From a virus, in IMG/VR virus record IMGVR_UViG_3300031758_000466, positions 1-27,155 of that record: DNA of 27,155 bases. One strand, given 5' to 3'. Both the position numbers and the translations under genes were made by a program. Within the stretch, counting starts at the first letter, position 1. The number at the start of each line of letters is the position of its first letter. Positions 5,506-27,155 of this stretch are shown piece by piece. The notes under the pieces were generated by a model. It saw only the letters and a list, made by a program, of their open reading frames with translations. It did no database searches and was not told the DNA's origin.

Positions 5506-6054
5506 TTAGAAAGGCTCCTTGAAACAAAATATAGGACACATATATTTAGTGCCTTTTGTTACTGGTTTTGGATCGTGGTAGTATGGTGGATATGAAGGAA
5601 ATATAATCATACTCCCAGCCTTTGGTTTAATATCAAGTCCTTGTTCTGGAAAGCATATGTTTCCACCTTCGTAGTCTTCATTTAAATACAAAACTATAGA
5701 TATAGTTGGTGATTTTAATGCTGTCTTATCTATTGAGTCTACATGTGGGCCCATATAAGCATTTGTAGAATATTTTTGAATTCTATAAAACTCTGGTATC
5801 CATCCAAAAGATAGGCCTGTATTTGCTGTGTAGTCTTTCAAGCATTTATATACTAAATCTTTAATTGGATTTAAAATATGATCTGATAACTTCGGGTTTC
5901 CTCCAATGGAGTGACCATAATGAATTAATCCATCGCTGGAGAACCAATCTTTCCAATCAAGCGAAGGGTCTTTTAATAAATCTATATACTCGTTTTTATT
6001 CTCAAAAAGTTCTGTATAATAATATATATTGTCCTCTAGCTTTTGAGTATTCAT
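5506..6054 (-). CDS. 2-oxoglutarate/Fe(II) dioxygenase (1 of 6)
   Basis: A 182-residue prolyl-4-hydroxylase-like enzyme. This family uses Fe(II), O2 and 2-oxoglutarate to hydroxylate a side chain, releasing succinate and CO2. The metal triad is visible as His104-x-Asp106 (GPHVDS) and His160 (YYHDPKP), and Lys170 ten residues later is the 2-oxoglutarate anchor. The family core LYLNEDYEGGNICFP lies between. It is the last of six such genes, 3 nt after the previous one, and the leaderless promoter of the LamG-type gene overlaps its end. The ribosome site is poor, so translation may depend on coupling. The substrate is unknown; a virion protein is my inference. Confidence 0.88.
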   Translation of the reverse strand: MNTQKLEDNIYYYTELFENKNEYIDLLKDPSLDWKDWFSSDGLIHYGHSIGGNPKLSDHILNPIKDLVYKCLKDYTANTGLSFGWIPEFYRIQKYSTNAYMGPHVDSIDKTALKSPTISIVLYLNEDYEGGNICFPEQGLDIKPKAGSMIIFPSYPPYYHDPKPVTKGTKYMCPIFCFKEPF

Positions 6055-6057
6055 TTG

Positions 6058-6765
6058 TTATTCGTTTTTGCCTTTATAGTTTGGTCTTAGACCCTTTTCT
6101 TTATCTTCTGCCCATAATTTATATTCTTCGTCTTGAGCTTTTCTTACTTCTGCCAATTCGTCAGCCCATTTTTTTCTCTGCTCATCAGTATAAACTGAAT
6201 CTGCATTATCCCAAAACGAGCCTATTGTATATCTTGTACCACTTTTAATTTGTGTAACTTCATGCTCATTTCCATGACCTCCCGCAAATACTGCAAGCAT
6301 GCCTATCTCTGGCTTTATACTAATATCATAATTTTTAAAGTTTAATATTCCTCCAGTAAAATCATCATTTAAATACATAAATGCTGCATACTTGCTTCTT
6401 TCAAATGCTGTTGGATTGCCTTCATCGTCTGAGTTATCTGAGTGAAATGAGGCAAATGCTCCTTCTATCCACTTCTGTGCATGATAACTAACCTCAGAAA
6501 GATCTTTACCTAAAACCTTTTCGCACGCATCTTTTATTCTAGAATTAAGTCTAGCAAAATAGTCTGGGGGCAAGTCAAACATCACCAGCTTTGGATCTGA
6601 CTCCCAGAATCCCATTGCATATGAGTCATAAAAAGATATTTGATTCCATTTTAAAAGATTTGACTCTGCTAAAAATTCTAAATATCTAATTATCTTATTA
6701 GCTTCTTCTTTGGTTACAACGTCTGACACATGGAAAACATCTTCTTTGTGCTTAGTAATTTTCAT
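6058..6765 (-). CDS. 2-oxoglutarate/Fe(II) dioxygenase (2 of 6)
   Basis: A 235-residue member of the same hydroxylase family. His108-x-Asp110 (ASFHSDNSD), His168 (NEHEVTQ) and Arg178 (SGTRYTIGSFW) make a complete active site. The core MYLNDDFTGGILNF is present. Unlike its neighbours it has Arg rather than Lys as the oxoglutarate anchor, and a charged C-terminal tail of about 45 residues rich in Glu and Lys. It has a strong GGAGG ribosome site and its start overlaps the end of the upstream hydroxylase by 14 nt. Sequence divergence from the other five suggests old duplication or separate acquisition and different targets. Confidence 0.88.
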   Translation of the reverse strand: MKITKHKEDVFHVSDVVTKEEANKIIRYLEFLAESNLLKWNQISFYDSYAMGFWESDPKLVMFDLPPDYFARLNSRIKDACEKVLGKDLSEVSYHAQKWIEGAFASFHSDNSDDEGNPTAFERSKYAAFMYLNDDFTGGILNFKNYDISIKPEIGMLAVFAGGHGNEHEVTQIKSGTRYTIGSFWDNADSVYTDEQRKKWADELAEVRKAQDEEYKLWAEDKEKGLRPNYKGKNE

Positions 6766-7534
6766 GCTTTTCCTCCATCTTATGATATCTCATGTTTTTA
6801 GGGTTTTCTATTTCAAGTCTTTCTTCTTCCATTTTAGCCCAACGAACCGCACCATAATGCCTTTGATTCTTTAACCATTCTTCCGAGCCAGCATATGGAT
6901 AAAAAACAAAGTTTCTTACAAAAAATTTTTCCCCTGATGTAATTGTTTTAACTCCATGGAAATAAGGTTCTCCTGATGGGAAAACCAAAATATCTCCAGA
7001 GTCTGGCTTATAAGGATACGTTTCCCCATCCAATAAAAACTCTATTTCTCCACCAGTATAATCGTCATTAAGATAGGTTGTGCATGTTAAAAAGAACTTA
7101 GGCCCTGGCATATCTTTTTCTGAAATCACATAATCTGTGTGATATTGCATGGACATATTATTATTCATTACATCAATATTCGTATCATATTTTGAAAATG
7201 ATGATGTAAGAAGTGAGGCACCTTCGGGAAGATTTAAATTATGTCTTTTTACATAATCAAATATTGCTTTTGAATAAGCCGCATAAACAGAGTCAGACAA
7301 ATACTTTTCGTCATCGTACATTTGACCGTGTTCTCTTGGTTCGTTTGGATCATGTTTTTGCTGAGTATAGGCTCCAAATATCGACCACTGGTCCCATTCT
7401 CTTAAATAATATTTACCTTTTGAAGATGCATAAGATTCTTTAACTATTTCTGCCATTTTTTTTGAATCTGGAAGTAGGTTTTTGTAAACATCAACCATCG
7501 GATAAATTTCAAAAAAATCAAATTCATTACTCAT
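6752..7534 (-). CDS. 2-oxoglutarate/Fe(II) dioxygenase (3 of 6)
   Basis: A 260-residue hydroxylase, the longest of the set. The triad is His132-x-Asp134 (MQYHTDYVI) and His193 (YFHGVKT), with Lys203 as oxoglutarate anchor. The core TTYLNDDYTGGEIEF precedes a double-stranded beta-helix stretch ending DSGDILVFPSGEPYFHG. The first 120 residues have no counterpart in the shorter paralogs and may hold substrate contacts. The ribosome site is AGAGAT, and the start overlaps the end of the next upstream gene by 8 nt, so translation is probably coupled. All catalytic residues are intact. Confidence 0.88.
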   Translation of the reverse strand: MSNEFDFFEIYPMVDVYKNLLPDSKKMAEIVKESYASSKGKYYLREWDQWSIFGAYTQQKHDPNEPREHGQMYDDEKYLSDSVYAAYSKAIFDYVKRHNLNLPEGASLLTSSFSKYDTNIDVMNNNMSMQYHTDYVISEKDMPGPKFFLTCTTYLNDDYTGGEIEFLLDGETYPYKPDSGDILVFPSGEPYFHGVKTITSGEKFFVRNFVFYPYAGSEEWLKNQRHYGAVRWAKMEEERLEIENPKNMRYHKMEEKHENY

Positions 7535-8237
7535 GCTTATCTCTTTCTAATTCCGTAACTGTCCAAAAAAGCGGGAATGTATACCTACATCCTTCTTTAA
7601 CAACATTAACTCCATGAATATAGTGCATGTCTCCAGGGAAAAAATATGCTCCCCTGGCCTTAGTTTTAAACACTATGCTCTGCTTAGGAAAATATAGTTC
7701 TCCTCCAACATAGTCATCATTAATATAGAATACTGTTCCTATGTCATACCAAGGAAATTCGTTTTCTGTTCCAGCGTCTGGACCTTCATGAAGTTCTTTA
7801 TCTGCGTGTGGGAATTGCATGGTTCCAACTGGCCATCTTACTATGGCTGGTGCAGCTGGTTGAACTGTAACATTAAATTTTTCTTCGATAATAGGCTGCA
7901 TTCTATTTGTTAAGTTCTCTAGTATTTCAATTACTTTTTCGTCAGCCTTTTTCAATGTTCCAACTGTTGCAACACGATTTTCCCAAACCCTGTGGTCGTA
8001 TATGATGTTGCCATTTTCATTCCATTGTGACTCCGTTATATCCCACAATGTGTTATTTTTAGCAAAATTTAAAAGGTATTCTTGCTCTTCAATTGTCATA
8101 AAATTTTCTAATTCTACGATATTATCTGAAGAGTTTCCAAAATAACCTGATGGAGTAATTGACTTCCTGGCGTACCTTACTCTCTCTTGAACCTTTTGAT
8201 TAGCATCTTGTATCATTCGTATACCTTTCTTTGCCAT
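7527..8237 (-). CDS. 2-oxoglutarate/Fe(II) dioxygenase (4 of 6)
   Basis: A 236-residue hydroxylase with His144-x-Asp146 (MQFPHADKEL), His208 (YIHGVNVV) and Arg218 (GCRYTFPLFW). The core VFYINDDYVGGELYFP is the family signature. The N-terminus is basic (RVRYARKSITPSGYFG) and is followed by NIVELENFMTIEEQEYLL, resembling the front helix of prolyl hydroxylases. The start at 8237 lies inside the end of the upstream gene, a 25-nt overlap, without a strong ribosome site. Met8 is an alternative start. As in gene 2 of the set, the anchor is Arg, so the array splits into Lys-type and Arg-type enzymes. Confidence 0.86.
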   Translation of the reverse strand: MAKKGIRMIQDANQKVQERVRYARKSITPSGYFGNSSDNIVELENFMTIEEQEYLLNFAKNNTLWDITESQWNENGNIIYDHRVWENRVATVGTLKKADEKVIEILENLTNRMQPIIEEKFNVTVQPAAPAIVRWPVGTMQFPHADKELHEGPDAGTENEFPWYDIGTVFYINDDYVGGELYFPKQSIVFKTKARGAYFFPGDMHYIHGVNVVKEGCRYTFPLFWTVTELERDKHE

Positions 8238-8944
8238 AATTTCTTTTTATATTGTCCGTTTTCAGTTGTTCTCAAAATTTTTGAAGCTTTATTTTTTATT
8301 TCATTCATTTCTTGTTCTTCTTTATAATCTAATTCCATATTCCAATCTTCTCTTTTAAATGGAAATATTTGAAGATATGGTGTTCCTGCTGGCAATAAAC
8401 CAGAAAAATCTTTTCTTAAAAAAAATGGAGTAAGGCCTGGTATTTCTAACATATCGCTATCTATTATACCAGCAGTAGTTATAAAAGGTAAATCATATCT
8501 ATTCATTGGAGACATAAAAATTGCACTATAACCCTTTTCTAATTTAACTCCCCAATTTGGATACCAATGAAAATGTTGTGCTTCGTATCCATAAGGAACC
8601 TCAAACCCTTCCATTGGAACCCTAGACCCAATAAAGCTTTCATATCCTGGCTCAGTTTTAGCCAACAATAAATTGTTTTGTGTATCCTTATAAAACATAA
8701 TGTCACAGGGTGTCGTTAAGTAGTATCCGCTTAAAAATATGTCTAGCAAGGCTGGGCAAGACTTAAACCCAAGTATTTCTGAGCCCCATTGGTGCCTTAA
8801 AACTTCTTCCTTTCCTTCTTCCTTCCAATACTTATTTGCAGAAGAAAACCATTTGGGAACTTGTCTTTTTCCTGGCTTGGGGGAAAGGTCTGGGTTATCA
8901 TTGTTGTATAATTGATGAGAAACAAATGTTATTTTTTTATTCAT
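8213..8944 (-). CDS. DUF6065-like hypothetical protein A
   Basis: A 243-residue soluble protein. Its landmarks are CPALLDIFLSGYYLTTPCDI, a HFHWYPNWGVKLEKGYSAIF segment, and LPFITTAGIIDSDM leading to PAGTPYLQIFPFKREDW. The order of these blocks matches the neighbouring gene at 8946-9641 (polar start, hydrophobic GW/GY turn, a strand pair, then a TP..(Q/S)I.P segment), so I read the two as distant paralogs. Similar hypothetical proteins lie near structural and oxygenase genes in marine phages. No catalytic motif is evident. The ATG at 8944 is chosen over an in-frame TTG at 8956. Its end overlaps hydroxylase 4. Confidence 0.65.
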   Translation of the reverse strand: MNKKITFVSHQLYNNDNPDLSPKPGKRQVPKWFSSANKYWKEEGKEEVLRHQWGSEILGFKSCPALLDIFLSGYYLTTPCDIMFYKDTQNNLLLAKTEPGYESFIGSRVPMEGFEVPYGYEAQHFHWYPNWGVKLEKGYSAIFMSPMNRYDLPFITTAGIIDSDMLEIPGLTPFFLRKDFSGLLPAGTPYLQIFPFKREDWNMELDYKEEQEMNEIKNKASKILRTTENGQYKKKLWQRKVYE

Positions 8945-8945
8945 A

Positions 8946-9641
8946 TTATTTTTCAATCACCTTTAATTTAATTGATTTTACTTCATGGTTACCTAATTTA
9001 TTTCCTTCTGGGTCTATAGCGTCTCTGTAAAAGTTTGTCCATAGTCCCTTAGAAGTTTTTTCTTTTACTATATCTAAATGTTTTTCACCATATTGACTGG
9101 GCTTTAATATCTCTATTCCAGAATAAGAAACACAAGACCCTTGAATTTCTGATAAAGATATTGGAATTATAGATGAAATTGGAGTATTTGCTTTAATTGT
9201 TATTATTTGATTTGGCTTTAATATTCTTAAAGCGCAGGGAAGTTCTCCTTGAAAAAATGAAGTGCTTATAAGAGTTGTAAATGATTGATATTCATCTGTA
9301 AATAAATTAGGTACGGGCATTTGCAACAAAGTAGTGTTTTCATTAGTTCTAAAAACCAAACCTGTCTTGAAGCTTATTGTTCCATTTGCTCTGCCTAAAT
9401 TACAATATTTATGCCCCGAAAGAACCCTAACGTGATGACTAGACGTATCTGATATTCCATCCCAGACAAAAGATATATCTTCTGGGTATGATATTCCCCA
9501 TCCCAGCGAATTTGTAAGTGTAACTGGAAAACATTTATAGGCATGGGCATCTACAGTATTATCCATCCAATCTCTTTTTACGGAAAGCTGAGATATATTA
9601 GCAGAATCTTCTGTATTTTTATAAACTAAAATATCATACAT
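8946..9641 (-). CDS. DUF6065-like hypothetical protein B
   Basis: A 231-residue protein that looks like the DUF6065 family, from VKRDWMDNTVDAHAYKCFPV followed by NSLGWGISYPEDISFVWDG. The biochemical role of that family is not known to me; members are seen in bacteria and phages, often near secondary-metabolism or oxygenase genes. The middle (FKTGLVFRTNENTTLLQMP) and the SIIPISLSEIQGS segment are beta-rich, compatible with a small double-barrel fold. The start overlaps the upstream hydroxylase by 8 nt. Its place inside a run of hydroxylases suggests a joint task, perhaps presenting or binding the same substrate; this is inference. Confidence 0.65.
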   Translation of the reverse strand: MYDILVYKNTEDSANISQLSVKRDWMDNTVDAHAYKCFPVTLTNSLGWGISYPEDISFVWDGISDTSSHHVRVLSGHKYCNLGRANGTISFKTGLVFRTNENTTLLQMPVPNLFTDEYQSFTTLISTSFFQGELPCALRILKPNQIITIKANTPISSIIPISLSEIQGSCVSYSGIEILKPSQYGEKHLDIVKEKTSKGLWTNFYRDAIDPEGNKLGNHEVKSIKLKVIEK

Positions 9642-10299
9642 AATTCTCTGTATATCTTTTTTCGATCTCTCTGTATTCTGGAGTATGTGGTGCTTCTAAA
9701 TAATCAAGCATGGTAACTATAGAGTATTTAGTGCCAGAAGTTACTGGCATCGCAGCATGAGAATATATAAATGATGAGGGGAATAAATAAAGATCTCCCG
9801 CCCTGGGCTTTATTTTTAAATTAAATTTGTCAAAAAATAGCTCGCCTCCTTCGTAGTCGTCATTAATATATCCAACTGAAGAAAGTACGCATATATAAGA
9901 ATATCCGTGATCTGAATGAATTTGAAAATGTTGATCTTGGCCATATTTAATAAAGTTAAATGATTCCCAATAGTTTAGAGGAGCCAAGCCAAACATTTGT
10001 CTATAGTCTTCTACTGGAGCTAACTGTACCTTGTACGAATCTTCCCAAATTTTTTCTAACTTTAGAGTAGACTCACTTTTACCAGCATCATCCCATGTAT
10101 TTTTTTTAATTTTAAAATCTGAACAATCTCTATATCTTTTATCTACCAAGGCATATCCAGTTTTTGCAGTTTTCCATTGATTTACATCAGAGCTATCTGA
10201 TAAAGTTTCTTCTAGTCTATTAATTAAATTCATTTCTGGCGTAAATACATTTCTATAGACAACAATACCTGGACCTAGAAATTCAGCATTACTTAACAT
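9634..10299 (-). CDS. 2-oxoglutarate/Fe(II) dioxygenase (5 of 6)
   Basis: A 221-residue hydroxylase with His128-x-Asp130 (FQIHSDHGY), His181 (YSHAAMPV) and Lys191 (SGTKYSIV). The core VGYINDDYEGGELFF is intact. Its N-terminus FLGPGIVVYRNVF closely matches that of the upstream paralog (IIGPGIVVYKNIF), and both share the VFPS/LFPS..IY.HAA.P ending, so these two are the most recent duplicates in the array. A GGAG site sits six bases before the start. Twelve nucleotides separate it from hydroxylase 6. Confidence 0.88.
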   Translation of the reverse strand: MLSNAEFLGPGIVVYRNVFTPEMNLINRLEETLSDSSDVNQWKTAKTGYALVDKRYRDCSDFKIKKNTWDDAGKSESTLKLEKIWEDSYKVQLAPVEDYRQMFGLAPLNYWESFNFIKYGQDQHFQIHSDHGYSYICVLSSVGYINDDYEGGELFFDKFNLKIKPRAGDLYLFPSSFIYSHAAMPVTSGTKYSIVTMLDYLEAPHTPEYREIEKRYTENYV

Positions 10300-10311
10300 T
10301 TATACTCCAAT

Positions 10312-10920
10312 TTATTTATATTGGTCACTTCTGTGACCCTTTTGTGTTCTATCGGTCATTAAGGCCAATACATATTTTGTTCCCGCTTTAATTGGATATG
10401 CTGCATGTGCATATATATAAGCAGATGGGAAAACTACTAAATCTCCAGACTCTGGCTGATAGTTAATGTCAAAGAATTTAAAGTGGAGGTTTCCTCCATC
10501 GTATTCATCATTTAGATATCCTACACAGGAGACAGTGTATCTAACATCTGGTCCGTCATCTGTATGATAATTAAAAAAATTATTTACAGAGTATTTAATA
10601 ACATTTAATGCTTCAAAATATTCTACTTTAACTGGATAATCTTTTTCATAGTCTAACAAACATTCTTTAATTTTTATCATTACTTCATCGTATAACTCTA
10701 ACAACTCTTTTGAGTTTTTTGCCTCTTTATCTAAAGAAATGTTGCTATACACAAAAGATTGACAAAATCTACCTTCACCTTGATATAGGGAACTTTCATT
10801 GGTTTTAGCTTTAGCCCAAGAATCTCCTATATTTTGCTCATATCTTTCTACTAAATTCATAGATTTTAAAAAAATATTTTTATATACTACTATACCTGGA
10901 CCAATTATATTTTTTATCAT
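10312..10920 (-). CDS. 2-oxoglutarate/Fe(II) dioxygenase (6 of 6)
   Basis: A 202-residue hydroxylase, first of the six in transcription order. The triad is His119-x-Asp121 (FNYHTDDGP) and His172 (YAHAAYPI), with Lys182 (GTKYVLALM) as oxoglutarate anchor. The core VGYLNDEYDGGNLHF and the strand GDLVVFPSAYIYAHAA are characteristic of prolyl-4-hydroxylase-like enzymes. It pairs with hydroxylase 5 as a close paralog. The start lies 1 nt after the stop of the small cysteine protein; the ribosome site is weak, again suggesting coupled translation along one long message. Confidence 0.88.
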   Translation of the reverse strand: MIKNIIGPGIVVYKNIFLKSMNLVERYEQNIGDSWAKAKTNESSLYQGEGRFCQSFVYSNISLDKEAKNSKELLELYDEVMIKIKECLLDYEKDYPVKVEYFEALNVIKYSVNNFFNYHTDDGPDVRYTVSCVGYLNDEYDGGNLHFKFFDINYQPESGDLVVFPSAYIYAHAAYPIKAGTKYVLALMTDRTQKGHRSDQYK

Positions 10921-24786: not shown

Positions 24787-24791
24787 CCATG

Positions 24792-24866
24792 TAGGCCTAG
24801 TGAGATTTGAACTCACAGTCGATTGTATATAAGACAATTGCTTTCACCAGATTAAGCTATAGGCCC
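24792..24866 (-). tRNA. tRNA-Ile (anticodon UAU)
   Basis: A 75-nt cloverleaf: acceptor GGGCCTA/TAGGCCT (one G-U), D stem GCTT/AAGC, anticodon stem ATTGT/ACAAT with loop CTTATAT, T stem GTGAG/CTCAC with loop TTCAAAT. Loop position 33 is T, and the anticodon reads TAT, which decodes AUA. The discriminator base is A and CCA is not encoded. Most bacteria read AUA with a lysidine-modified CAU tRNA, so a UAU tRNA is an unusual phage choice. AUA codons are common in the genes of this window. Confidence 0.88.
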
Positions 24867-25418: not shown

Positions 25419-25529
25419 TTAATAGAGATTTATTTTGTATGATCCACACTTTTGACATGTCCGATTTGTCCAGATAGTCCGCCCATATGACTGGTCAATG
25501 TGATGAGCATCACAAGGTATTTTTTTAAT
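25419..25529 (-). CDS. Possible 36-residue zinc-ribbon peptide without ATG
   Basis: A reading frame that gives KKIPCDAHHIDQSYGRTIWT and then NRTCQKCGSYKINLY. C6, H9 or H10 and C25-x2-C28 form a believable zinc ribbon. No ATG, GTG or TTG is in frame after the stop upstream; the only start-like codon is ATT at 25529. It covers the CRP-type box on the other strand, whose palindrome codes part of CDAHH. It may be a decayed gene, a gene with a rare start, or an accident of the regulatory DNA. Confidence 0.3.
   Translation of the reverse strand: MKKIPCDAHHIDQSYGRTIWTNRTCQKCGSYKINLY
25499..25514. promoter_or_regulatory. CRP/GlxR-type box TGTGA-N6-TCACA (1)
   Basis: TGTGATGAGCATCACA, a palindrome with 7-bp arms and a perfect match to the consensus of cAMP-receptor proteins, including actinobacterial Crp and GlxR. 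Its centre is 72.5 bp before the first base of the -10 box at 25579. Confidence 0.65.
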
Positions 25530-25562
25530 ATGTCTTAAATGTCCGAATTGCGACTTGCTATC

Positions 25563-25584
25563 TGTCGGATCCCGATGCTAAGAT
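25563..25584 (+). promoter_or_regulatory. Early-type promoter 1 (TGTC-N12-TAAGAT)
   Basis: TGTC at 25563-25566, twelve bases ending CGATGC, then TAAGAT at 25579-25584 with an extended -10 TGC. Start predicted near 25591, where an ATG lies in frame with the gene that follows. Confidence 0.6.
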
Positions 25585-25617
25585 CATTACATGAACTCAA
25601 CGAAAGAAGGTCAAAAC

Positions 25618-25716
25618 ATGAAAAGTATTTCATGCGCTGGATGCGATAAATTTATCATGGAGATGCCAGAGGATGAGGCAGAATTTCTCACCGCCTTGTG
25701 TCTGGATTGCTTTTAA
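25618..25716 (+). CDS. 32-residue four-cysteine zinc peptide
   Basis: MKSISCAGCDKFIMEMPEDE followed by AEFLTALCLDCF: C6-x2-C9-x18-C28-x2-C31, a minimal zinc knuckle pair with an acidic middle. AGAAGG lies seven bases before the ATG in a leader (AACGAAAGAAGGTC) also found before the gene at 26655. A second start is possible: the ATG at 25591 is six bases after the -10 box and in frame, which would add nine residues (MNSTKEGQN) and make a leaderless form. Confidence 0.65.
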   Translation: MKSISCAGCDKFIMEMPEDEAEFLTALCLDCF

Positions 25717-25717
25717 T

Positions 25718-25739
25718 TGTCCGAGCCTTATGCTACAAT
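25718..25739 (+). promoter_or_regulatory. Early-type promoter 2 (TGTC-N12-TACAAT)
   Basis: TGTC at 25718-25721, twelve bases ending TTATGC, TACAAT at 25734-25739. It lies two bases after the stop of the four-cysteine gene and drives the four-gene group at 25774-26397. Confidence 0.6.
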
Positions 25740-25773
25740 TCCAACTATAACCAACTAGAGAAAGAAGAACACT

Positions 25774-25962
25774 ATGATGAGTAAATGGGATACAATTCAG
25801 GCAGATGTTGCCGACGCATATGTTTATCTTGATGAACAAGATGAGCCAGATGAACAAGATGAGGACGGAGATATTTTCGGATTCTCTAAGGCTATGAGCA
25901 TTGACCACCTATCCGATCAAGAGATTGCAGAACTAGCACTTACGCTAGATTGGAAAGAATAA
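25774..25962 (+). CDS. Small acidic hypothetical protein
   Basis: Sixty-two residues (MMSKWDTIQADVADAYVYLD), with an acidic near-repeat DEQDEPDEQDEDGD and a helical end (LSDQEIAELALTLDWKE). The acidity might mimic DNA, as some phage antihost proteins do, but that is only a charge argument. AGAAAGAAG precedes the first ATG; the second ATG at 25777 is an option. The stop overlaps the next start (TAATG). Confidence 0.7.
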   Translation: MMSKWDTIQADVADAYVYLDEQDEPDEQDEDGDIFGFSKAMSIDHLSDQEIAELALTLDWKE

Positions 25963-26114
25963 TGAGCGAAGGTATTTTTACGATTGAACTAGGTCGCTAT
26001 GGATTCATGCTAGATACTGAATGGGCATATGTGTCTCTCTCATGGCCGTTGCTTATCTTGTCTGCGCTATCTGCTACAATTTACACTATCGTAAAACGAA
26101 TGAGGAGTAAGTAA
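25962..26114 (+). CDS. 50-residue single-span membrane protein
   Basis: MSEGIFTIELGRYGFMLDTE followed by a membrane helix (YVSLSWPLLILSALSATIYT) and a basic tail VKRMRSK, so the C-terminus should stay in the cytoplasm. It starts in the TAATG overlap of the preceding gene and ends in another one. A copy of the early-type promoter motif lies inside its coding region at 26059-26080. Confidence 0.65.
   Translation: MSEGIFTIELGRYGFMLDTEWAYVSLSWPLLILSALSATIYTIVKRMRSK
26059..26080 (+). promoter_or_regulatory. Early-type promoter 3 (inside a gene)
   Basis: TGTC at 26059-26062, twelve bases ending TATCTGC, TACAAT at 26075-26080, inside the 50-residue gene. It could add transcription of the two genes after it. 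Confidence 0.45.
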
Positions 26115-26212
26115 TGAATAGACTACTAACAACCGCCGTCCAACTATTGTTAGCAATTCCGACTATCTATCTAATTAGATGGATGATCGCCGACTATAAG
26201 GAGAACATGTAA
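26114..26212 (+). CDS. 32-residue single-span membrane peptide
   Basis: MNRLLTTAVQLLLAIPTIYL followed by IRWMIADYKENM. One membrane helix with Arg at each end. It starts in a TAATG overlap with the 50-residue gene and ends in the TAATG of the next. The AAGGAG near its end is the ribosome site of the next gene. Translation seems to be by re-initiation. Confidence 0.6.
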   Translation: MNRLLTTAVQLLLAIPTIYLIRWMIADYKENM

Positions 26213-26397
26213 TGAAAACGGAATTCGAAAAAGAATTAGAGATAAAAGAAGCATACGATGCAATGCTTGATGAAGTTTATACCGATGTAAAGATCGGTTA
26301 CTCTACATTCACCGCCTCAGAGATTCTTTTTAATTGTGATCCCGTCATGTATCATCAAGGTCTCTTGGACTATACCGACTCAATAGAAAAAGATTAG
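26212..26397 (+). CDS. Small acidic hypothetical protein
   Basis: Sixty-one residues, acidic and helical at the start (MKTEFEKELEIKEAYDAMLD), then VYTDVKIGYSTFTASEILFN and a Tyr/His-rich end. AAGGAG lies ten bases before the ATG. Last of four genes linked by TAATG. I do not recognise a family. A 9-bp hairpin follows the stop codon. Confidence 0.7.
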   Translation: MKTEFEKELEIKEAYDAMLDEVYTDVKIGYSTFTASEILFNCDPVMYHQGLLDYTDSIEKD

Positions 26398-26414
26398 GGG
26401 CGTGAGGGGCGTGT

Positions 26415-26436
26415 CAGCTTGACAAACGTCAAGCTG
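26415..26436 (+). terminator. Hairpin CAGCTTGAC/GTCAAGCTG after the four-gene group
   Basis: A perfect 9-bp stem with an AAAC loop, 17 bp after the stop codon, extendable by two pairs. No T-run follows, so it would be a terminator of the kind without a U-tail or an RNA-stability element. A direct repeat GGGGCGTG precedes it at about 26398-26412. Confidence 0.5.
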
Positions 26437-26503
26437 GCCCGCAAAGGCGTGGGGGACCAGTCACATTTAAGAGATGACCATTAAATCCCCTGAATCTACG
26501 GCG

Positions 26504-26529
26504 TGTCGATTTGACAGACAAATCGGACA
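26504..26529. repeat. Near-perfect inverted repeat TGTCGATTTG / CAAATCGGACA
   Basis: Ten-bp arms that differ by one inserted base, loop ACAGA. The right arm (26517-26530) is the reverse complement of a 14-base stretch at 25457-25470. Confidence 0.55.
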
Positions 26530-26536
26530 TATTGCG

Positions 26537-26552
26537 TGTGATGCTTATCACA
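26537..26552. promoter_or_regulatory. CRP/GlxR-type box TGTGA-N6-TCACA (2)
   Basis: TGTGATGCTTATCACA, perfect in the ten conserved positions. Its centre is 72.5 bp before the first base of the -10 box at 26617, the same distance as in the first copy. It is also nested in a larger GCGTGTG/CACACGC inverted repeat. Confidence 0.65.
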
Positions 26553-26600
26553 TAGCACACGCTCCATATATTGAGACAAACCCTTGCACAATTAACAAAA

Positions 26601-26622
26601 TGTCGGTGCCTAATGGTACAAT
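26601..26622 (+). promoter_or_regulatory. Early-type promoter 4 (TGTC-N12-TACAAT)
   Basis: TGTC at 26601-26604, twelve bases ending TAATGG, TACAAT at 26617-26622 (extended -10). It drives the gene at 26655 through a 32-nt spacer with the AACGAAAGAAGGTC leader. Confidence 0.65.
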
Positions 26623-26654: not shown

Positions 26655-26855
26655 ATGTCCGCAAACCTATACACAGTCCCAGCCCTACTAGTAGGCAAGA
26701 CATATCGCTCAGATAGTTTAGAGGGCGAGATCATCTCAGCCGAGCCTCACAATACGGCTTGGTATGACGGCGCAGAGGCTTACCGCGTAGAGGTAAAGTC
26801 CTACGATATGGGAATCGCAAAGTATTCTTATCGCACAGTAGCCGTTCAGGTATAA
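26655..26855 (+). CDS. Small beta-rich hypothetical protein
   Basis: Sixty-six residues: MSANLYTVPALLVGKTYRSD, LEGEIISAEPHNTAWYDGAE and AYRVEVKSYDMGIAKYSYRT. The alternating pattern suggests a small beta barrel. AGAAGG lies six bases before the ATG. The frame is open further upstream to 26571, but that part is promoter DNA. Its promoter module copies that of the gene at 25618, so both should be co-regulated. Confidence 0.72.
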   Translation: MSANLYTVPALLVGKTYRSDSLEGEIISAEPHNTAWYDGAEAYRVEVKSYDMGIAKYSYRTVAVQV

Positions 26856-26934: not shown

Positions 26935-26956
26935 TGTCGGTACTATCTGATACAAT
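26935..26956 (+). promoter_or_regulatory. Early-type promoter 5 (TGTC-N12-TACAAT)
   Basis: TGTC at 26935-26938, twelve bases ending TATCTGA, TACAAT at 26951-26956. No CRP-type box lies at the corresponding upstream distance. Confidence 0.6.
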
Positions 26957-26986: not shown

Positions 26987-27155
26987 ATGTACACACTAAG
27001 TATTGCATATGACGGAAAGAGAATTGCATCATGGGATTTTGCAGATGCTCTATCTGCCGTCCATGAATTCGATAAATGCGTAGATGCTGGCGACTCTAAA
27101 GAATACGCTACCTACAACTTGTCTGAGCCTAATGGTAAAATGCACACTAAGAACT
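26987..27155 (+). CDS. Hypothetical protein, N-terminal part (cut by window edge)
   Basis: Fifty-six codons up to the window end: MYTLSIAYDGKRIASWDFAD, ALSAVHEFDKCVDAGDSKEY and ATYNLSEPNGKMHTKN. It reads as a small alpha/beta protein with a strand start, a helix and a final NLS.P.GKM.TK motif that I associate with small early proteins of actinobacterial phages. AAAGG lies seven bases before the ATG. Driven by early-type promoter 5. Confidence 0.7.
   Translation, partial: MYTLSIAYDGKRIASWDFADALSAVHEFDKCVDAGDSKEYATYNLSEPNGKMHTKN

Follow-up and report, generated by a model that had tools for sequence, protein, structure and literature searches.

At class I CRP promoters of the E. coli lac type, the palindrome lies well upstream of the -35 element and active positions recur with every helical turn, the E. 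coli register being -61.5, -72.5, -82.5 and -92.5. The GlxR and Crp (Rv3676) regulons of Actinobacteria use the consensus TGTGAN6TCACA and are chromosomal. In coliphage T1, cAMP-CRP is reported to influence lysis-lysogeny (PMC6737242). The closest cultured relatives, by portal protein, of the viruses considered here are the Stanwilliamsviridae (Streptomyces phages Muntaha, Gilson and BillNye; about 58% identity), which share whiB with the present family but whose three genomes, each about 127 kb long, lack its TGTCRG-N10-TANNAT promoter.

The locus described here lies in a stretch of viral DNA of 27,155 nt, hereafter the window. Its boxes, and those of related contigs, have the same consensus as the GlxR and Crp regulons but sit in phage genomes and are nearly absent from 18 genomes of the presumed host type. 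Like class I sites, they lie upstream of -35 and repeat every 10-11 bp; however, at about -54.5, -64.5, -74.5, -84.5 and -95.5 (assuming the -10 hexamer spans -12 to -7) they fall about 3 bp further upstream than the E. coli register, so we describe the arrangement as class-I-like and not as a member of class I. The promoters further differ from the lac type in an extended -10, a TGTCRG motif in the spacer, and their use in front of phage genes of tens of families. As in T1-type coliphages, host metabolic state could thereby affect phage development, although the T1 report concerns the lysogeny-lysis decision (PMC6737242) and the present family has a whole promoter block with phased boxes. Our literature searches for CRP or GlxR sites at early promoters of phages found nothing on the present ones. 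CRP-dependent promoters are known, but phased boxes across dozens of phage gene families are, as far as our searches show, new.

We consider it probable, at roughly 0.78, that host CRP, positioned upstream on one face of the DNA, assists RNA polymerase at these phage promoters by class-I-like activation. If true, this gives a testable explanation for the start of the gene program in a widespread uncultured family of actinobacterial phages, in which the host's global regulator serves dozens of promoters under a helical spacing rule derived from comparative sequence alone.

Two perfect boxes at promoters of one gene block

Exactly two perfect copies of TGTGAN6TCACA occur in the window: predicted CRP/GlxR-type box 1 at 25499-25514 (TGTGATGAGCATCACA), identified by pattern scan and conservation in 17 relatives with the same spacing, and predicted box 2 at 26537-26552 (TGTGATGCTTATCACA), identified by pattern scan and belonging to a type common in the downstream gene family. 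Dinucleotide shuffling yields 0.04 expected copies and none of 100 shuffles reaches two, while sites with at most two mismatches show no excess (8 vs 15.9 expected). At both sites, 48 bp separate the box end from TGTCGG and 72.5 bp separate the box centre from the -10, which places the centre at about -84.5 if the -10 hexamer occupies -12 to -7. These results bear out the observation in an earlier note on this DNA, which had reported the two perfect copies, an expectation of about 0.03 that made chance unlikely, and centres 72.5 bp before the -10 at about -84; its description of CRP/GlxR-type boxes at early promoters likewise holds in that the boxes accompany the promoters from which a block of phage genes would be read. 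The "identical distance" that it emphasized applies within the window, whereas relatives display several helically phased values.

The window contains six sites of the class TGTCNG-N10-TANNAT, all on the plus strand and all past 25.5 kb, four of them without a near-perfect box. Promoter 1 (25563-25584, plus strand; class scan and motif logo) reads TGTCGG-N10-TAAGAT, with TGC before the -10 at 25579-25584 and a weak -35-like TTGCTA at 25555-25560 on the same strand, an 18-bp spacer away, which is proposed from the sequence and from TTG enrichment in related promoters. It is followed by a small plus-strand ORF of 32 aa (25618-25716) with a CxxC...CxxC pattern and the ribosome-binding site GAAAGAAGG. 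Promoter 2 (26601-26622, plus strand; class scan) reads TGTCGG-N10-TACAAT, with TGG before the -10 at 26617-26622, and precedes a plus-strand 66-aa ORF (26655-26855) that has no Pfam or PHROG match and belongs to the commonest box-driven gene family (85 loci). The remaining plus-strand sites are a same-class promoter at 25718-25739, boxless here but with a box in 7 of 9 family members; a promoter-like TGTCTG-N10-TACAAT at 26059-26080, where no box was found; a class promoter without a box at 26935-26956; and a promoter-like class site without a box at 27120-27141. All four come from the class scan, with family counts added for the first and third. The boxed genes are small and presumably early, the latter judging from gene order.

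Hundreds of TGTCRG-class promoters occur across related IMG/VR contigs, in the large ones mostly on one strand and in one block. The consensus from 686 TGTCNG-N10-TANNAT sites in related loci approximates AAATGTCAGTSS....TGNTAYAAT, and a ribosome-binding GAAAG usually begins 16-18 nt past the -10. At a distance of 7-8 nt before TGTCRG, TTG and hexamers similar to TTGACA are enriched (640 promoters), and the promoters thus resemble the sigma-A type: by their sequence they appear to combine a weak -35 and an extended -10 across a spacer of 17-18 bp that contains TGTCRG. TGTCRG itself was rejected as the -35, because the TTGAWA-like -35 precedes it by 7-8 nt and leaves TGTCRG in the spacer. In the presumed-host-type genome G612 the TGTCRG promoter matched once, with no intergenic match.

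Several other features of the window were recorded. An inverted repeat, TGTCGATTTG-ACAGA-CAAATCGGACA (26504-26529), adjoins box 2 on its upstream side, recurs in relatives and looks like a further candidate operator. A tRNA-Ile with anticodon TAT (24791-24866) separates the structural genes from the promoter block, and an Rfam search found nothing beyond a tRNA. At 5506-10920, several paralogous proteins in a run read like putative 2OG-Fe(II) oxygenases of the prolyl-hydroxylase type.

Boxes are phased by whole helical turns in related loci

Each of 24 large related contigs (48-115 kb) contains one to eight boxes, and a reversed-pattern control gave none in any of them. Related loci were collected in two ways: IMG/VR was scanned for a box followed by a promoter at gaps of 33-63 bp (at least 120 stretches), and 80 loci were taken via endolysin similarity, which makes the sampling of this second set independent of the box. 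The endolysin-chosen loci hold 153 promoters in 100 clusters with 45 perfect boxes upstream, against a single match to a scrambled box even when one mismatch was allowed. Chance origin of the boxes is ruled out by these two controls together with the shuffles of the window. Nearly all boxes of the endolysin set lie at gaps of 18, 28-29, 33, 37-38 and 47-49, with a period of about 10.5 bp (p ~2.5e-6). Across all loci the box-to-motif gap peaks at 18, 28, 38, 48/49 and 59 bp, again with a 10.5-bp period; half of all loci came from the gaps-33-63 pattern, so exact counts lean toward that range, the endolysin set being exempt.

The phasing persists when related promoters are collapsed. With 87 family-by-gap classes counted once each, the best period is 10.5 bp (R = 0.65, p ~1e-16), and the gap can vary among 18, 28, 38 and 48 inside a single gene family. 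Of the 75 gene families, 48 have a box with at most one mismatch. Allowing two mismatches, a box is present at phased gaps in 381 of 687 promoters and at sampled out-of-phase gaps in 4, a control that excluded the gap 32-34 family. A homologous group of boxes does lie half a helical turn out of phase, at gap 33/34; CGACACGCC is often found in this group, 17 bp before TGTCRG. Of 441 distinct boxes, 167 lack a promoter of the strict pattern within 10-65 bp, though a relaxed version is present at many of the 167.

Variation within the box is unevenly distributed, as the 111 single mismatches comprise 15 in the GTG/CAC core, 74 at the inner A and 22 at the outer T. An FNR-type site (TTGAT-N4-ATCAA) was rejected as the identity of the element, since the boxes and their single-mismatch variants keep the GTG core. 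Box plus whole-turn gap plus TGTCRG plus extended -10 could be read as a marker by which to find such phages, and their promoters, in metagenomes. Box and promoter together at gaps 18-48 gave 13 matches in prokaryote genomes totalling 257 Gb, and a promoter cassette borrowed from the host was rejected on this basis. Three of the 13 were inspected: two look like chance, and the third, L205 (VGXN01000109.1) in a Phycisphaerae MAG bin, has two phage-type promoters with a phased box and is probably a mis-binned phage contig.

Box and spacing are kept in sister phages

A search of sister phages for the box at the same spacing, which had been suggested as a check, showed that both are kept. For site 1, 17 relatives share the layout at an identity of at least 55%, and in them the box arms are conserved (1.82 and 1.78 bits) while the six-base centre drifts (0.70 bits); in the close relative L123, for example, the arms are intact and the N6 differs. 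For site 2, two relatives pass the same identity cut-off and both keep the box. The 66-aa gene that follows box 2 belongs to a family of 94 members, of which 81 carry a box (one mismatch allowed), 64 of the 81 at gap 47-49.

A matching CRP in presumed hosts and none found in the phage contigs searched

The presence of whiB in 13 of 14 related contigs tested, together with a portal closest to those of Streptomyces phages, makes Actinobacteria the most likely hosts on sequence grounds. A nucleotide search against cultured phages gave no match. The viruses form a widespread family of uncultured actinobacterial phages, probably from freshwater. As genomes of presumed host type we used 38 small rhodopsin-bearing genomes of the class Actinomycetes (GC about 40-50% where looked at), which appear to resemble freshwater Nanopelagicales in size, GC and gene content; the members of a first sample of the phylum included no small rhodopsin-bearing genome.

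A CRP-type cNMP-binding protein, mostly single and of about 230 aa, is encoded in 37 of the 38. Twelve were aligned, eleven from presumed-host-type genomes and one from Metallococcus, with 19 further loci left out, and all twelve share the GlxR-type recognition helix and a conserved PRTA-type cAMP-pocket motif. The solved structures closest to them are CRP/FNR-family proteins of Actinobacteria, among them 3d0s, 3i54 and 3mzh, which we take to be from M. tuberculosis, and 4byy, 3r6s and 4cyd, presumably Corynebacterium GlxR; in helix and nearest structures they are thus like GlxR and Crp (Rv3676). The earlier note had counted the lack of a cAMP-receptor gene in the host as evidence against its proposal, and the presumed hosts do carry such a gene, of GlxR type with the matching helix, in genomes of the type we infer for the host. 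The 24 related contigs of 48-115 kb yielded no cNMP-binding domain and the 2.06 Mb of related loci no match resembling CRP or a cyclase, ruling out a phage-encoded CRP for the sequence searched.

Boxes are scarce in the presumed-host-type genomes themselves. Perfect copies total one in 18 of these genomes, and any enrichment of intergenic sites with up to two mismatches is weak and confined to one genome; with little or no near-consensus excess, the specificity of host CRP is deduced from the protein and not from a regulon. This near absence from presumed hosts, set against box-rich phages, is what one would expect of an operator private to the phages, and a phage-encoded DNA-binding protein other than CRP might read TGTGAN6TCACA and drive or shut the promoters, the more so as our search of phage proteins covered the CRP family alone. 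We nevertheless judge this improbable: the motif matches the CRP/GlxR consensus exactly and varies least in its GTG/CAC core, a protein bearing the GlxR recognition helix is encoded by the presumed hosts, and a CRP-family gene is absent from the 24 contigs.

The proposed link between early expression and host cAMP status is not supported, and dependence on cAMP is made less likely by what the presumed host type encodes. A class III adenylyl cyclase query that recovers distant cyclases in PDB found no convincing match in two complete presumed-host-type genomes (G612 and G474), the best in G612 being a 70-aa ORF (E 0.014); consensus CRP sites are almost absent from both. CRP in the presumed hosts may therefore act without cAMP control. 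A bolder version, which we regard as possible but rather unlikely, makes CRP, in hosts seemingly devoid of a class III cyclase and with hardly any consensus CRP sites, the phages' borrowed activator, with the phages holding the cell's best sites and no cAMP signal drawn on.

Activation by host CRP as the most probable explanation

The computations show the boxes, their whole-turn phasing and retention in sister phages, the lack of a CRP gene in those phage contigs that were searched, and the presence of a matching CRP in the presumed hosts; CRP binding, activation over repression, early timing and any cAMP role are inferred. The boxes would be operators for a host GlxR/Crp-type protein, which would bind the palindrome some 54-96 bp before the transcription start, present itself on the same DNA face at each whole helical turn, and help host RNA polymerase onto phage promoters with a weak -35, a spacer TGTCRG and an extended -10. 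The whole-turn distances in particular suggest that the viruses switch genes on via the host's CRP/GlxR regulator.

Host CRP might instead mainly repress or silence the promoters, or have an architectural role, so that genes are delayed, for instance, or starvation of the host is sensed. CRP-family proteins repress too, the M. tuberculosis member approaches nucleoid proteins in copy number (PMC4117774), and the gap-33/34 boxes are half a turn off. Yet no box overlaps the -35/-10 region, the usual site of CRP repression (the closest common gap is 18), and whole-turn phasing upstream is a signature of activation; in M. tuberculosis, moreover, upstream binding goes with activation and near-start binding with repression (PMC4117774). 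Repression or architecture as the main role accordingly seems to us a poor prospect next to activation by host CRP. That the boxes are non-functional and their spacing the relic of one duplicated promoter cassette is highly implausible, for although some upstream modules are homologous between genes (the gap-33 family; the module at 26500-26560), the arms are conserved as the N6 drifts, the gap changes by whole turns within single families (18/28/38/48), and the phasing survives one count per family and gap class.

Further motifs around the promoters

DnaA boxes (TTATCCACA) number 391 in the 2.06 Mb of related loci, compared with about 25 expected by a hand estimate from base composition, and within 300 bp upstream of promoters they lie mostly in one orientation (193 forward, 48 reverse). 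An element GGCGTGTC(G) occurs in the window at 26408 and 26500, and related loci contain 687 copies of GGCGTGTCG, roughly 100-fold more than base composition would give by a hand estimate; a short hairpin such as AGCTTGACAAACGTCAAGCT and GGCCCGC often come after the element. Finally, the motif GAGCGTCTCA is oriented: of 97 copies in all loci, 88 lie within 300 bp upstream of promoters, none reversed, and 62 are at gap 32-33.
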